A stretch of 64,000 nt of DNA from Roseimicrobium sp. ORNL1. GTDB taxonomy: Bacteria; Verrucomicrobiota; Verrucomicrobiia; Verrucomicrobiales; Verrucomicrobiaceae. The notes beneath the pieces were generated by a model. The model was not told the origin of the DNA and ran no database searches. It saw nothing but the letters and a program-made list of their open reading frames with translations. This document shows positions 1,198 through 7,104 of the stretch, in pieces (within the stretch, counting starts at the first letter, position 1; each line of letters starts with the position of its first letter). Made by a program: the position numbers and the translations under genes. Location: assembly GCF_011044495.1 (NCBI RefSeq), contig NZ_CP049143.1, forward strand, positions 4,526,001 through 4,590,000. Direction: 5' to 3'.

Positions 1198-1839
1198 ATG
1201 CTCCCCCCATGGACATGGCAGATTGTGGCTCTGACGCTGGCGATCATTCCGCAATGGCTGACAGCCCAGGCAACCATTGAAGGCACCGTGCCTGCCACGG
1301 GCGCAGCCATGTCCCCGCCCCCTTCGCCCAAGTATCAATTGAAGGCTGGCTCCGTAGCCCCCTCGCCCCGCCAGGTCGCGGTGGTGTATCTGGAGGGAAA
1401 CTTCGGATCCCGTGCGGGTAACAAGACCGTGACCTTCGGCCAGAAGGGGTACCAGTTCGATCCCGGTGTGATTGTGGTACAAACGGGCACGCGCGTGTCG
1501 TTTCCCAACTTCGACGACGACTACCACAACGTGTTCAGCTATTCCAAGACCAAGCGCTTCGACCTCGGGCGGTACCGCAAGGATGAGACACCGCCTGCGC
1601 TCGTCTTCGAAAAGCCCGGCATCGTGCGTCTCTATTGCGAGATCCACGAGCACATGCGCGGTGTGATCGTGGTGGTGGACACACCCCACTTCACCACCAC
1701 CACCGCGGAGGGAAAATTCAAACTCACCGGACTGCCTGCTGGCAACTATGTGCTGAAGGCGTGGTTGGATGACAAGACCACGCTGCAACAGCCAGTGACG
1801 CTGAAATCCGGTGTGCTCAAGGTGGACTTCAAGAAGTAG
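1198..1839 (+). CDS. Exported cupredoxin with carboxypeptidase-regulatory-like C-terminus
   Basis: 213 residues with a signal peptide ending near LTAQA (residues 20-25). A cupredoxin-like domain covers about residues 55-160. Candidate type-1 copper ligands are His110 (in DDDYHNVFS) and Cys147, His150 and Met153 (in YCEIHEHMRG), giving the usual Cys-x2-His-x2-Met spacing. The last 50 residues resemble a carboxypeptidase regulatory-like beta-sandwich (GKFKLTGLPAGNY). Such proteins are often labelled methylamine utilization protein, but no mau genes are present here. The membrane cyclase gene follows after about 60 bp, so a periplasmic copper or redox input to that enzyme is a reasonable inference, not shown. 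Confidence 0.72.
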   Translation: MLPPWTWQIVALTLAIIPQWLTAQATIEGTVPATGAAMSPPPSPKYQLKAGSVAPSPRQVAVVYLEGNFGSRAGNKTVTFGQKGYQFDPGVIVVQTGTRVSFPNFDDDYHNVFSYSKTKRFDLGRYRKDETPPALVFEKPGIVRLYCEIHEHMRGVIVVVDTPHFTTTTAEGKFKLTGLPAGNYVLKAWLDDKTTLQQPVTLKSGVLKVDFKK

Positions 1840-1901
1840 CACAACCTCGCACCACACTCCCTCCGGACTCGCGCGGGCGCAGTATCCCTCCCACCCCTCC
1901 A

Positions 1902-3827
1902 ATGCCCCTTCCGAAGCTCCGCTCCCCGTCATTCCGCACCAAGCTGATCGTCGCAATGACGCTGGTGGTGGCGGGAGTCACCGGGGCCACACTGTATGTG
2001 GCGAGCAAGCGGGTGCAGACCACCTACCAGCACCAGTTCGAGCAACAGTTTCAACAACAGCTCGCCTACTTCTCCGAGGTGCGTCTCCGCCAGCTCAATG
2101 ACCTGGTACGCAAGTGCGAAGCCCTGGGAAAGTCCGTGCGACTCGCCAGCGCCCTTGAGACCGCGATTGAGGACAATGACCCTGACTTCGTCTATGACAA
2201 CCTTAGCACCGAAATCGAAGTTCTTGCGAAGGCCACCGAAACCACGAATCCAGCCCTCACCAAACTGCGTGAGAACATGCGCCGGGAGCAGCCCGCCCGT
2301 TCCAACGCCCAGCGCGATCGGGAGCGGGATCGCTTCCAGAGCAATCTCTTCAACCTCGCGCTCGTCGATGCCGAGGGGCGGATCCTCGTGCCGGACAAGA
2401 AACGGGCAACCTTCATGTTCAAGCCGGACCTGAAGAATCGCACAGAGGTCTTTTCCATCTTCAAAGAGCACGCGGCCTCGGAAGTGCTGAAGGAACAGGA
2501 GATCGGCTACCTTCCCATGCGGAAGGAAACAGACAACGCGCAGCTCCGGGAGGTGATCCTGACTCCCATCATCAACCAGGGCTCAGGGGAAACCATTGGC
2601 GCGCTCATCATGGGATTCCCGGTGCGGGACTTTGGCGAGTCCGCCATGTACCAGTTCAGCGAAAAGGCGCTGCAGAGCGGCATCTGGCTGGGTGGACGCG
2701 TCTATTCCAAAACCATTCCCGACGACGTGCACGAAAGCGTTTCCTCGCGCATCAAGGATGTGCTCCAGCACAGTGACCTCTCCAGCAAGGACGTAATCAG
2801 CATCGAAGGTGTCCCGCACCGGCTCATCTACAAGGTGCTGAATCCGGAATCACTCTTTCCCCCCGCGGTGCAGGTGGGTCTCTACTCCATGAGCGAGGCA
2901 CTTGCGGAGCAAATGGACCTGCGCAGCAAGGCCTTGGGATTTGGCGTGGTGGCACTGTTGATCGGGGTCGGATTCATCTTCCTCATCTCGCACGGTTTCA
3001 GCAAGCCAATCGAGCAGCTCGTGGAGGGCACCCGCCGCATTCAAGAGGGTGACTACACGGTGAAAGTGCCCGTGACCACCCGGGATGAAATCGGCACGCT
3101 GGCCAAGTCCTTCAATGAGATGGCCGAGGAACTGGCCCTCAAGGAACGGTACAAGTCGGTGCTCGCCCAAGTAACAGACAAGCAGGTGGCGGAGGAACTC
3201 ATCAATGGCCGCCTGCCCTTGGGAGGGGAAGTGCGGCAGGTGAGTGTGCTCTTCTGTGATATCCGCGGTTTCACCGCACTGACGGAGAACATGCCACCCT
3301 CCGAAGTCATCGCCATGCTCAATGAACACATGAGTGCGATGAACCGAATCGTGTACCAGCACTATGGCGTGGTGGACAAGTTCGTGGGGGATCTCATCAT
3401 GGCCGTCTTCGGCGCACCGAAGTCCTACGGTAACGACGCGCTGCATGCCGTGAAGTGCGCCGTGCGCATGATGGAGGAACGCGTCAGGCTCAACACAACC
3501 TCGCAATACAAATTTGACGTAGGCATCGGGGTCGCCACTGGCGAGGTGGTTGCAGGACTGATGGGCTCCGACGACCGCCAGAACTACACGGTGCTGGGCG
3601 AGCGTGTGAACCTCGCCTCCCGCCTGTGCTCCAAGGCAAGCAGCGCCGAACTGCTCATTGACGACACCACCTATGCACAGCTCCCGGAAGGCTTCACCGT
3701 ACAGGCGACCGAGCCGCTTCCGCTCAAAGGCTTCAGCCTTCCCATGGCTGCGTACAGATTGATTTCCATGAGCGAGGAAGTGGGTGCTCCCCCCACCGGA
3801 CTCAGCACGGCCAAGCTTCATCATTGA
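1902..3827 (+). CDS. Membrane HAMP-class III adenylate/guanylate cyclase
   Basis: 641 residues. An N-terminal TM helix (about 14-32) is followed by a large periplasmic sensor region (about 33-340), a second TM helix (about 344-363), a HAMP domain (about 364-415) and a class III nucleotide cyclase domain (about 440-625). The catalytic domain shows the first metal site FCDIRGFT, the second metal-site Asp in DKFVGDLIMAVFG, and the transition-state Asn and Arg in VNLASRL. It should make cAMP or cGMP; the specificity is not certain from sequence. The genes on either side encode a periplasmic cupredoxin and an outer-membrane barrel, with short gaps (62 and 21 bp), so all three are probably one operon. 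Confidence 0.9.
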   Translation: MPLPKLRSPSFRTKLIVAMTLVVAGVTGATLYVASKRVQTTYQHQFEQQFQQQLAYFSEVRLRQLNDLVRKCEALGKSVRLASALETAIEDNDPDFVYDNLSTEIEVLAKATETTNPALTKLRENMRREQPARSNAQRDRERDRFQSNLFNLALVDAEGRILVPDKKRATFMFKPDLKNRTEVFSIFKEHAASEVLKEQEIGYLPMRKETDNAQLREVILTPIINQGSGETIGALIMGFPVRDFGESAMYQFSEKALQSGIWLGGRVYSKTIPDDVHESVSSRIKDVLQHSDLSSKDVISIEGVPHRLIYKVLNPESLFPPAVQVGLYSMSEALAEQMDLRSKALGFGVVALLIGVGFIFLISHGFSKPIEQLVEGTRRIQEGDYTVKVPVTTRDEIGTLAKSFNEMAEELALKERYKSVLAQVTDKQVAEELINGRLPLGGEVRQVSVLFCDIRGFTALTENMPPSEVIAMLNEHMSAMNRIVYQHYGVVDKFVGDLIMAVFGAPKSYGNDALHAVKCAVRMMEERVRLNTTSQYKFDVGIGVATGEVVAGLMGSDDRQNYTVLGERVNLASRLCSKASSAELLIDDTTYAQLPEGFTVQATEPLPLKGFSLPMAAYRLISMSEEVGAPPTGLSTAKLHH

Positions 3828-3848
3828 CTCTCCGCTCCCGTCACTCCC

Positions 3849-5057
3849 ATGAACCGGCGCTCACCTTTTCATACTTTGCTGTCCCTGGCCACATGGTGCG
3901 CATTCAGCGGAGGCATCTTCGCATTTGATCTCACGCCTGCAGACTCACCCGTGCATGCGAGCCTCCGGGGCACGCTGGATGCAGAGCTGTATGTCACAGA
4001 CTCCCCTGCCCCCGGCCTGCTCTTCAGCGATGACGAGGCTTTCTTCAATCCGCGTGCCACGCTCTTCCTGGATGTGAACTTTGGCAGCCATATCTTCGCC
4101 TCCCTGCAGGCGCGGTTTGATCGCGGCTTTGATCCCGGTGCGGCAGAAGACGGCGATGCGCGCCTGGATGAATACTTCGTCCGCTGGACGCCTCTCGATA
4201 CGCCCGTGGTGAATATCCAGGTTGGAAAGTTCTCCACGGTGTTTGGCAATTGGGTGCCTCGCCATCTCTCCTGGGACAATCCGTTCATCAATGCGCCCGT
4301 GCCCTATGAGAACGTCATCGGCATCACCGACCTCGCCGCCCCGCTGACGCGTGGCGCTTTCCTCAATCGCAAGAACCTGGCGGACAAGAAGCGCGAATGG
4401 CTGGTACCCATCTGGGGGCCATCCTATGCGCATGGTGCATCCGTGTTTGGCCGCATCGAGGAATTCGATTACGCTTTTGAAATCAAAAGTGCCAGCCTCT
4501 CCTCGCGACCCGCAGCATGGCAGGCGAGTGACACGGAGTTCGACGAACCTACCGTCACCGGACGCGTGGGCTGGCGACCAAATGCTTCCTGGAATCTGGG
4601 CACCAGCTTCAGCACCGGCGCCTACATGCAACCGGATCGCGACCTGAGCCTGCCAATTGGCACGGATCGCGGGGACTTCACACAGGACACCATCGGCTTC
4701 GATGTGAGCTATGCGCGACATCGCCTCGAGCTCTGGGGCGAACTCATCCTCTCCCGCTTCGAAGTGCCTCGCGTGGGCGATGCAGATACGCTCAGCTACT
4801 TCCTTGAAGCAAAATACAAGCTCACCGAGAGCCTCTTTCTCGCCGCGCGATGGAACCAGCAATTCTTCGATGATGTGGGTGATGGCCGTGGTGGCTCAAC
4901 ATCGTGGGATCGTGATCTGTACCGTGCAGATCTCGCTGTAGGTTATCGTTTCAATCGCAATGTGCAGACGAAGCTGCAGTACAGCTACGGCCGCGAAGGT
5001 GGTGAGAATGCGAATGCCGATCATCTGCTGGCGGCCCAGGTGACAGTGAGGTTCTAG
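3849..5057 (+). CDS. Outer-membrane beta-barrel (porin-like) protein
   Basis: 402 residues with a signal peptide ending near GGIFA (about residue 25). The mature part consists of alternating amphipathic strands rich in aromatic residues at strand ends, and the protein ends in VTVRF, a C-terminal Phe typical of outer-membrane barrels recognised by BAM. It resembles phosphate-selective or general porins of the OprP/OprO style without a clear substrate. It lies 21 bp after the cyclase gene and is probably cotranscribed with it and the cupredoxin gene. Confidence 0.75.
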   Translation: MNRRSPFHTLLSLATWCAFSGGIFAFDLTPADSPVHASLRGTLDAELYVTDSPAPGLLFSDDEAFFNPRATLFLDVNFGSHIFASLQARFDRGFDPGAAEDGDARLDEYFVRWTPLDTPVVNIQVGKFSTVFGNWVPRHLSWDNPFINAPVPYENVIGITDLAAPLTRGAFLNRKNLADKKREWLVPIWGPSYAHGASVFGRIEEFDYAFEIKSASLSSRPAAWQASDTEFDEPTVTGRVGWRPNASWNLGTSFSTGAYMQPDRDLSLPIGTDRGDFTQDTIGFDVSYARHRLELWGELILSRFEVPRVGDADTLSYFLEAKYKLTESLFLAARWNQQFFDDVGDGRGGSTSWDRDLYRADLAVGYRFNRNVQTKLQYSYGREGGENANADHLLAAQVTVRF

Positions 5058-5068
5058 TTTCCTTTCCC

Positions 5069-5497
5069 ATGAAGCCCTACCCACGCAGCGCCTATGATCG
5101 CACCAAAGGTCTCGTCTATTTCGCCCGCATGCTGGACAAGATTCGTCTGAAGGCGGCAAGACAGCTTCGTGAGGACTACTTCGAGAATCTTGGCGGTGGC
5201 TTTGATGGGCGATGCTGCCGCTTGCTGGGCATCGACTACGCCGCCTTCTGCGAGCGCGTACTCGCCGGTGGTACCGATGAGGAGGTTCTGGACTGGGCCT
5301 ATGCCCAGCGCGCACCGTTAACGGACGAGCAGCTTCTTGTGTGGAACAAGTTCATGGAAAAGCGCGGCTGGCGTGACGAGGATGACGGCTCCACGCAGGA
5401 ACTGGAAACCTACAAGGCCGGCAGCGGCCTGGCGCATCGTACGGACTTGGTGACGTTTTTTGACTACTACGAGGTGGATGAGAAGCGCAGGCAGTGA
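5069..5497 (+). CDS. DUF5069 domain protein
   Basis: 142 residues, no signal peptide or TM helix. The opening YPRSAYDRTKGLVYFARMLDKIRL and the conserved W-x-KFMEKRGW segment match the DUF5069 family found in Verrucomicrobia, Planctomycetes and a few others. No function is known. It begins 12 bp after the porin-like gene and may be read through from that operon. Confidence 0.8.
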   Translation: MKPYPRSAYDRTKGLVYFARMLDKIRLKAARQLREDYFENLGGGFDGRCCRLLGIDYAAFCERVLAGGTDEEVLDWAYAQRAPLTDEQLLVWNKFMEKRGWRDEDDGSTQELETYKAGSGLAHRTDLVTFFDYYEVDEKRRQ

Positions 5498-5553: not shown

Positions 5554-6042
5554 ATGAGATCACCCCTCTTAATTTCCCTCCTTTCACTGGGCCTCCTTTC
5601 AGTCCCTCTTTTTTCTCAGGACACTGACCCTGCTGCTGATGGCGCAAAACTCCCCACCAACGTCGAAACAGTTGTCACGGGTGGCCATTGGGAACGCGGA
5701 GACCAAGATGGCACCTACCGGGTTATCATGCTCTTAGAGGGCTGGGAGCATCTCGCCAACCGGGTGCTGCTGCAATGGATTCGCTACGATCAAGACAAGC
5801 AGGAGATGCTCGTGGAGAAGACCGTGGCCATTGAGGAAATTCCTGTCGGGGCAGCTTGGCGCATTACTTCGGTGAATTTTGTAACACCAAAGGACTTGCC
5901 CGCCAAGGGCTCCAAGGCAACGGAAAAACAAGGACAGCTTCAACTCGTGCTTCAGGCGCACTCCGAGCGTGCAGGCAAGGCAACCTTTACAATCACACCC
6001 ACGACCGATCATCGGTATGCGTTTTTGGAAAGCCTGAAATGA
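5554..6042 (+). CDS. Secreted hypothetical protein
   Basis: 162 residues with a clear signal peptide (MRSPLLISLLSLGLLSVPLFSQ). The mature part is predicted mostly beta-rich with no motif I recognise. The ATG at 5554 gives a normal signal peptide. Local A/T-rich bases (CTAATTTTAGC) just upstream could hold a promoter element. Function unknown. Confidence 0.65.
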   Translation: MRSPLLISLLSLGLLSVPLFSQDTDPAADGAKLPTNVETVVTGGHWERGDQDGTYRVIMLLEGWEHLANRVLLQWIRYDQDKQEMLVEKTVAIEEIPVGAAWRITSVNFVTPKDLPAKGSKATEKQGQLQLVLQAHSERAGKATFTITPTTDHRYAFLESLK

Positions 6043-6066
6043 AGCCACACGCGTACTGACTCGTGC

Positions 6067-7104
6067 ATGCAGATTGGAATTGATAGTTTCGTCGCCATTG
6101 ACCCGGAGCACCAGCACGAGGGCTCCCCAAGTGCCGTGCAGCGCATGGCCAATATCCTGGAGGAAATCGAACTCGCCGACCGCGTGGGGCTGGATGACTT
6201 CGGCATCGGGGAGCACCACCGCACCGAGTATCTCGACTCGGCACCCGCGGTCATCCTGGCCGCCGCGGCAGCGCGCACGAAGCAGATTCGGTTGACCAGT
6301 GCCGTCACCGTGCTCAGTGCCGCGGACCCGGTCCGTGTGTTCCAGGAGTTCGCCACATTGGATCTCATTTCGAAGGGGCGCGCGGAGATGGTGGTGGGAC
6401 GCGGCTCCTTCACGGAAGCTTTTCCCCTCTTCGGCTTTGATGTGCGGGACTACGACTCACTCTTCGCGGAGAAGCTGGAGCTTCTGCTGCGCATCCGGGA
6501 AAACACTGAAATCACCTGGTCGGGAAAACATCGCGCGCCCTTGCAGGAGCAGGGCATCTATCCCCGCCCCCTGCAAACGCCGATTCCCATCTGGGTGGGT
6601 GTGGGGGGTACTCCGGCGTCCTTCGCGCGTGCCGGTGCGCTGGGCCTGCCGCTCGTAGTGGCCATCATTGGTGGTGAACCACATCGTTTCCGCCCGCTCA
6701 TCGATCTCTATCGTGAAGCTGGCGCCCGCGCAGGTCATCCACCGGAGAAGCTAAAGGTTGGCCTGCACATGATTGGTTTCATCGGCGAGACCTCTGCCCA
6801 GGCGAAGGATGATTTCTTCACCGGTTACAAGCGAGCCTTCGACAAGATCGGCGAGGAACGAGGCTGGCCCCGCACCACGCGCGCGCACTTCGAGGCTGGT
6901 TGCAGTCTGAAAGGCGCCCTCATGATTGGGGATGCGGAGTATGTGGCCTCGAAGATTCTCTACGTGAATGAGGCTCTCGGCGGCATCGCGCGGTTGAACT
7001 TCCAGATGACTGTCGCCACGGTCCCTCACGCACAGATGCTGAAGTCCATCGAGCTGCTGGGCACGAAGCTGGCACCCATCATCCGCGAAAAGCTGCCGGG
7101 CTAG
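6067..7104 (+). CDS. LLM-class flavin-dependent oxidoreductase (luciferase-like)
   Basis: 345 residues, cytoplasmic. The sequence follows the bacterial luciferase-like monooxygenase TIM barrel: N-terminal strand MQIGIDSF, the GIGEHH segment, TSAVTVLSAADPVRVFQEFATLD, then VGRGSFTEAFPLFG and VGVGGTPASFARAGALG for phosphate/FMN binding. It probably uses FMNH2 or F420 from a partner reductase; none is adjacent. The substrate is not predictable. It starts 24 bp after the preceding secreted-protein gene, and a tRNA-like fragment begins two bases after its stop codon. Confidence 0.85.
   Translation: MQIGIDSFVAIDPEHQHEGSPSAVQRMANILEEIELADRVGLDDFGIGEHHRTEYLDSAPAVILAAAAARTKQIRLTSAVTVLSAADPVRVFQEFATLDLISKGRAEMVVGRGSFTEAFPLFGFDVRDYDSLFAEKLELLLRIRENTEITWSGKHRAPLQEQGIYPRPLQTPIPIWVGVGGTPASFARAGALGLPLVVAIIGGEPHRFRPLIDLYREAGARAGHPPEKLKVGLHMIGFIGETSAQAKDDFFTGYKRAFDKIGEERGWPRTTRAHFEAGCSLKGALMIGDAEYVASKILYVNEALGGIARLNFQMTVATVPHAQMLKSIELLGTKLAPIIREKLPG

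Follow-up and report, generated by a model that had tools for sequence, protein, structure and literature searches.

We examined a three-gene locus of Roseimicrobium sp. ORNL1 that lies in a 64,000-nucleotide stretch of contig NZ_CP049143.1 (positions 4,526,001 to 4,590,000; here called the window, whose numbering is used below). An earlier note, made from the letters of the window, had described the locus as a cassette of an exported cupredoxin, a receptor-type nucleotide cyclase and an outer-membrane barrel. We designate the three open reading frames (ORFs) CUP, CYC and OMP.

1198..1839, + strand: CUP, ORF of 213 aa; putative exported cupredoxin with a C-terminal carboxypeptidase-regulatory-like domain
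1902..3827, + strand: CYC, ORF of 641 aa; first transmembrane helix (TM1), predicted dCache-like periplasmic sensor, TM2, HAMP domain (residues 362-411) and class III nucleotide cyclase domain (residues 445-620)
3849..5057, + strand: OMP, ORF of 402 aa; predicted 16-strand outer-membrane porin, nearest solved fold OprP/OprO

An ORF check reproduced the described gene order, coordinates and gaps to the base: 62 bp separate CUP from CYC and 21 bp separate CYC from OMP. A pattern scan of the two gaps revealed no terminator-like or promoter-like site, and hence no sign of the separate transcription that had been raised as a possible objection; this is weak evidence, since the scan totals equalled the shuffle expectation. 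The source genome contains one CUP, one OMP, eight cyclase matches and HAMP matches in 15 genes (manual count). The best overall explanation, to which we assign a probability of about 0.5, is that CUP, CYC and OMP belong to a single operon encoding a trans-envelope sensing module in which the cupredoxin acts as periplasmic co-receptor.

Composition of the three proteins

A family alignment placed the type-1 copper ligands of CUP at H110, C147, H150 and M153, in a C-x2-H-x2-M spacing that we take to be amicyanin-like. Inspection by eye indicated that the N terminus is signal-peptide-like, and together these features are consistent with the proposal that the first gene encodes an exported cupredoxin with a full type-1 ligand set. 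Because all Pfam and NCBIfam scores fell below the curated cut-offs (17.0 against 27.0 for Cupredoxin_1 and 15.6 against 21.2 for Copper-bind; CarboxypepD_reg in Pfam and halocyanin and amicyanin in NCBIfam also were below), it is the ligands and the family alignment that support the assignment. Comparison with the sequences of solved structures gave two weak matches. The four ligands were kept in all 123 aligned CUPs (93/93 of types A/B, 24/24 of types C/D/E and 6/6 from plasmids), a count from which three duplicates had been removed, which includes loci L066 and L096, where there is no receptor or porin linkage, and which must be read with the fact that the relatives were partly recruited by motifs that include ligands. 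Among 12 more distant CUPs, one lacks H110, and L066 carries a second, degenerate CUP without most of the ligands. An alignment of all CUP types was too poorly conserved for scanning.

The HAMP and Guanylate_cyc domains of CYC both scored well over their Pfam cut-offs, the latter with 107 bits against PF00211 (cut-off 21.9). The nearest solved chains of the cyclase domain (6fht, 2w01 and 3r5g) are Nostoc CyaB2 and Pseudomonas CyaB. The metal and substrate residues are in register with those of CyaB/CyaB2, and the metal Asp pair and the transition-state Asn and Arg are present; the roles of these residues are assigned from general knowledge. The Lys/Thr substrate residues are as in Pseudomonas CyaB, which we take to point to a cyclic AMP (cAMP) product, and CYC is predicted to be an adenylate, not a guanylate, cyclase. 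Between the two TM helices the sensor is predicted to adopt a dCache-like fold (predicted local distance difference test score, pLDDT, 86.6). Domain models and structure prediction therefore agree with the earlier description of a two-TM receptor-type nucleotide cyclase with a large periplasmic sensor. The sensor had no match among the sequences of solved structures. Its top structural match was LuxQ (Z 13.1 over 203 residues at 4.4 Å), followed by other dCache domains at Z 10-12; the LuxP-LuxQ complex (entry 2hj9) also was among the matches, at Z 11.8.

OMP is predicted to form a barrel of 16 strands (manual count; pLDDT 92.2), a porin fold that accords with the outer-membrane barrel proposed for the third gene. 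No Pfam family exceeded its cut-off, Porin_O_P was not among the matches listed, and comparison with the sequences of solved structures gave chance-level matches only. Foldseek placed general porins first (best E 3e-15). In a second structural comparison OprP/OprO came top (Z 29.3 over 307 residues, 2.9 Å, 16% identity), with OmpK36 behind them (Z 25.1), a ranking that applies to the families on the list compared.

Conservation of the trio and exchange of the output domain

In order to determine whether the three genes travel together, as the earlier note had proposed to check, we searched 387 genomes of the phylum. CUP matched in 41 genomes, at 56 places. We examined 51 regions around CUP places outside the window, three further weak places being left out, and called receptors with tblastn, Pfam and local models; Pfam was applied to 10 of the 23 non-A/B receptors, the others relying on the local models only. 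A receptor gene lies directly downstream of CUP in 35 of the 51 regions and one gene further in two more (L085 and L087). The OMP profile matched at all in 32 of the 387 genomes. It exceeded 400 bits in 17 matches from 16 genomes, of which matches 16 are clustered with CUP; in L052 an extra ORF separates kinase and OMP. The exception, in genome G013, is read as a remnant, because this OMP is N-terminally shortened and has the same pilus-gene surroundings as the full trio of L048. The sensor profile matched in 17 genomes, and all 12 matches above 300 bits are at CUP-OMP clusters.

The search was extended to named genomes, in which 441 stretches matched CUP patterns (two motifs, one holding three ligands) and 377 were confirmed. 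Counts for named loci refer to the best 80 of these 377; chosen by similarity to the window CUP via the two motifs, they overstate conservation in the family as a whole. Under a strict distance rule the sensor is directly downstream of CUP in 78/80 loci, and the same-strand order CUP-sensor-OMP is present in 56/80, with 17 contigs ending within 3.6 kb after CUP. Variants include a porin with a split sensor ORF (L110 and L164), a porin before the regulator (L115), a CUP-OMP pair with the sensor elsewhere on the other strand (L141) and, outside the 78 sensor-positive loci, a sensor-like overlapping ORF (L151). Gene calls in unannotated loci were simple calls of our own. Since L040-L095 served to build the local models, results of these models are circular for that set; L097-L176 were new to them, except L098, L112 and L163, which duplicate L040, L041 and L047 and were left out of residue counts and trees while remaining inside the 80. 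Named isolates with relatives include Verrucomicrobium sp. BvORR034 and BvORR106 and Chthoniobacter flavus Ellin428. The trio is thus kept together elsewhere, and because its order is conserved in many genomes, a chance neighbourhood is ruled out. Five metagenome bins titled Akkermansia muciniphila or Klebsiella pneumoniae (L099, L100, L114, L147 and L150) hold a typical Verrucomicrobial trio, and their titles are probably wrong.

The sensor half can be aligned between versions of the receptor that end in a cyclase and versions that end in a kinase. Pfam analysis revealed that HisKA/HATPase_c replaces the cyclase in L041-L047, L049 and L052, and that L048 has a kinase-receiver. Outside that group, CUP lies between an outer-membrane-like gene and a dCache_3/CHASE4-HAMP receptor whose output is a kinase-receiver (L055, L056, L062 and L067, by Pfam), a cyclase (L059, L060, L069 and L077) or a Ser/Thr kinase (L076 and L078). 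L085 and L087 have a CHASE4 chemotaxis receptor, and the receptor of L095 is dCache_3-HAMP-GGDEF-EAL. Across the 80 named loci there were 48 kinase and 23 cyclase outputs, with 9 unassigned. When six output types and "none" were mapped on a CUP tree of 68 rows, 10 changes were required; for the 56 receptor-linked rows taken alone the count was at least 7. With a labelling that lacked the chemotaxis type, the two figures were 9 and 6. These counts are parsimony minima on a weakly resolved tree, with 26 of 65 inner branches open and several long rows. A CUP+OMP tree of types A/B gave 2 cyclase/kinase changes, at least 1. The output domain is exchanged while the sensor input is kept, the cyclase being one of several outputs, and the frame of a cyclase cassette proved too narrow.

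A barrel also accompanies CUP in the more distant loci. All 20 type C/D loci have a co-directional gene ahead of CUP, and in 18 of them its product ends in the aromatic residue F; the exceptions are L057, where the last residue is L, and L073, where the neighbour does not resemble a barrel. Pfam places an Alginate_exp barrel upstream in L076, the DUF3034 protein of L095 begins with a signal-like segment and has F as its last residue, and no barrel was seen upstream of CUP in L077 or L078. Judged by termini and Pfam, with structure prediction behind the OMP type of the window only, an outer-membrane barrel appears to recur with CUP although the barrel family changes.

Genes next to the trio were noted in some kinase-type loci. 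The gene after the trio in L042 (12674-14293), L044 (4675-6588), L045 (3482-5065) and L046 (12157-15144) encodes a protein with Ig-like domains, accompanied by NHL repeats in L046; this is a candidate regulated surface protein.

Possible coupling of the cupredoxin to the receptor

LuxQ works through a separate periplasmic protein, LuxP, and TorT-TorS is a similar receptor with a periplasmic partner. By analogy, CUP may well be a periplasmic co-receptor or a redox/copper reporter, as LuxP is for LuxQ. The porin would admit a solute or a reductant/oxidant, or anchor the module at the outer membrane, and the secreted type-1 copper protein would act in the periplasm as the co-receptor. Its copper-loading or redox state would alter the way in which it contacts the dCache domain of the receptor in the inner membrane. 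The contact would probably lie close to the distal tip of the long sensor helix, in the region of the conserved residues R80 and E104. From there the signal would be relayed via TM2 and HAMP to the cyclase dimer, which would produce cAMP; in relatives the same input would act on a histidine kinase, a kinase-receiver, or a GGDEF-EAL, Ser/Thr kinase or chemotaxis output. R80 is R in 87/89 trio sensors (2 gaps), in 0/5 sensor-cyclases without CUP/OMP and in 2/2 lone kinase copies, and E104 is E in 83/89 trio sensors compared with 1/7 sensors not next to CUP; since the rows are related by descent, this pattern is a pointer and not a test.

That CUP reports to the receptor, as suggested earlier, is still the best reading of the locus. 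The accompanying suggestion that the barrel is a dedicated route was not retained: the barrel is absent in some relatives, and from the predicted fold it is more likely a porin-like channel or an envelope anchor. More broadly, and more tentatively, an outer-membrane barrel and a type-1 copper protein could constitute a widespread, unnamed plug-in input unit. It would be read by dCache/CHASE4-type receptors that carry cAMP, phosphorelay, cyclic di-GMP, Ser/Thr kinase or chemotaxis outputs interchangeably, and the redox- or copper-sensitive element would be the copper centre.

Several observations weigh against a co-receptor role. LuxQ is ahead of other dCache domains by only about 1 Z unit, so small a margin that general dCache receptors must be regarded as equally good matches. 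L050, L053 and L054 are CUP-OMP pairs without a receptor, and 11 of the 51 phylum regions have CUP without an adjacent receptor, several of them beside cytochrome-oxidase-like gene runs. Conversely, L128, L144 and L147 have CUP and a receptor and no porin was found despite room for one, so that neither of these partners of CUP is obligatory. Seven weaker sensor matches (115-269 bits) have no CUP beside them, five in cyclases (L193-L197) and two in kinases (L198 and L199); since family sensors also occur without CUP/OMP, the receptor can function on its own, and neither CUP nor OMP is obligatory for the receptor family. No copper-handling gene was found among the proteins annotated here, and the response regulators of the kinase versions score below the heavy-metal family cut-off.

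Two side observations concern these loci. L079, L080 and L081 form a separate cupredoxin branch in gene runs that resemble cytochrome oxidase clusters (by position and N termini). L198 (genome G181) has what resembles a second, decayed trio at about 6019-6718, where fragments of sensor and OMP overlap.

dCache domains bind small ligands directly, and many such domains are among the structural matches of the sensor. The receptor might therefore sense a small ligand alone and control the synthesis or activity of the porin and CUP as its outputs, an uptake or electron-transfer pair. The OmpR-type regulator present in the clusters of the kinase versions would suit such control, as would the existence both of CUP-OMP pairs without a receptor and of receptors without CUP/OMP. 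We consider this rather unlikely: cyclase, GGDEF-EAL, Ser/Thr-kinase and chemotaxis versions keep CUP, there is no local transcription factor in the window trio, nor was one recognised by local models in most such versions, and a chemotaxis output does not usually regulate genes.

The same regulators bear on whether the locus is a Cop/Cus-type operon for copper homeostasis whose output is unusual. The heavy-metal CopR/CusR subfamily was the best NCBIfam match of the three regulators tested, but at 206.5-209.8 bits they fell short of the TIGR01387 cut-off (279.2) and were only 3-18 bits over PhoB. The three kinases tested scored 122.9-126.2 against the TIGR01386 cut-off of 292.55, with PhoR/PnpS matching as well or better, and no CopA, CopB or Cus component was recognised in the proteins scanned. 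An arrangement of this kind is very improbable, and a copper-resistance operon was rejected on the regulator scores.

Linked redox genes, comparable systems and neighbouring genes

CUP relatives in Proteobacteria carry the annotation "methylamine utilization protein". Fifty plasmid records matched CUP, 32 of them from Sinorhizobium; 11 were examined, of which 10 are annotated and one is from Sinorhizobium. An EAL receptor directly follows CUP in 7 of the 10 annotated records, and an eighth, L094, has only a cache-domain fragment. No receptor follows CUP in the rhizobial L096 and L204, and the single Sinorhizobium record examined is without the module. DUF3034 and a truncated globin are directly upstream of CUP in 6/10 annotated plasmids and divergent in L093; the globin of L095 has a signal-peptide-like start. 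A run of DUF3034, secreted truncated globin, cupredoxin and EAL receptor was noted in Burkholderiales plasmids (L091, L094, L095, L200, L202 and L203), the receptor of L094 being a fragment.

Redox genes recur in other branches. L085 and L087 have the order MauG-type di-haem peroxidase, CUP, cytochrome P460 and CHASE4 chemotaxis receptor. In L088, too, the cupredoxin has a MauG-type di-haem cytochrome c peroxidase next to it, and in L204 and L096 CUP is near cbb3 oxidase or SCO genes. With the secreted globin, such neighbours would fit a CUP that is the electron carrier of an envelope redox enzyme, with the receptor monitoring pathway load and the porin admitting substrate. This appears distinctly unlikely for the window, since there is no redox enzyme in its trio, none was recognised between the trio genes of A/B loci, and such enzymes sit in other branches of the CUP tree. 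For CUP as a reporter to the receptor, the globin, di-haem peroxidase, P460 and oxidase neighbours in other branches make redox a likelier signal than copper level.

The module would work like known accessory-protein receptors and adds to them a copper protein, an outer-membrane barrel and exchangeable outputs. Like LuxP-LuxQ, it places a separate periplasmic protein next to a dCache-like receptor, for which LuxQ is the top structural match. Unlike LuxP, which is of the sugar-binding type, its partner is a type-1 copper protein; moreover, it also encodes an outer-membrane barrel, and its outputs extend beyond histidine kinases. CHASE/Cache-HAMP class III adenylate cyclases (Nostoc CyaB2 and Pseudomonas CyaB) have the nearest cyclase domain, with catalytic residues in register; to our knowledge, the genes of these known cyclases are not accompanied by cupredoxin and porin genes. 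OMP shares its predicted fold with the phosphate-type porins OprP/OprO, but at 16% identity it is outside any Pfam porin family at cut-off. The Burkholderiales set resembles the module in having a CUP relative, the "methylamine utilization protein", directly before a Cache-HAMP-GGDEF-EAL receptor, with DUF3034 upstream, and differs in its cyclic di-GMP output, secreted truncated globin and barrel family; it is apparently unstudied.

The earlier note knew of no described system with this trio, and among the titles and abstract beginnings listed in searches of the open-access literature we likewise found no description of a cupredoxin-receptor-porin module. One report describes a cupredoxin beside copA, in an arrangement different from the trio (PMC8478169). 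If the proposed reading is true, a copper protein would serve as a bacterial signalling input and not as an electron carrier, and one input would be plugged into most known kinds of transmembrane output. It would also provide a hypothesis of function for many "methylamine utilization" and hypothetical proteins, and a testable case of an outer-membrane protein, a periplasmic protein and an inner-membrane receptor evolving as a unit while the output swaps.

The genes flanking the trio in the window were considered as members and rejected. A DUF5069 gene (5069-5497) has no relative in the loci examined (tblastn). An AraC gene (716-1132) has no relative near the trio in L040-L054 (tblastn), except for a distant ORF in L051. 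Its product is a 138-aa AraC-type protein that comprises the DNA-binding part only; it is encoded directly upstream of CUP here and was not seen upstream of the trio in relatives. Elsewhere in the source genome, outside the window (C1:4641296-4645039), there is an open frame of 2397 aa with about 14 HAMP repeats.

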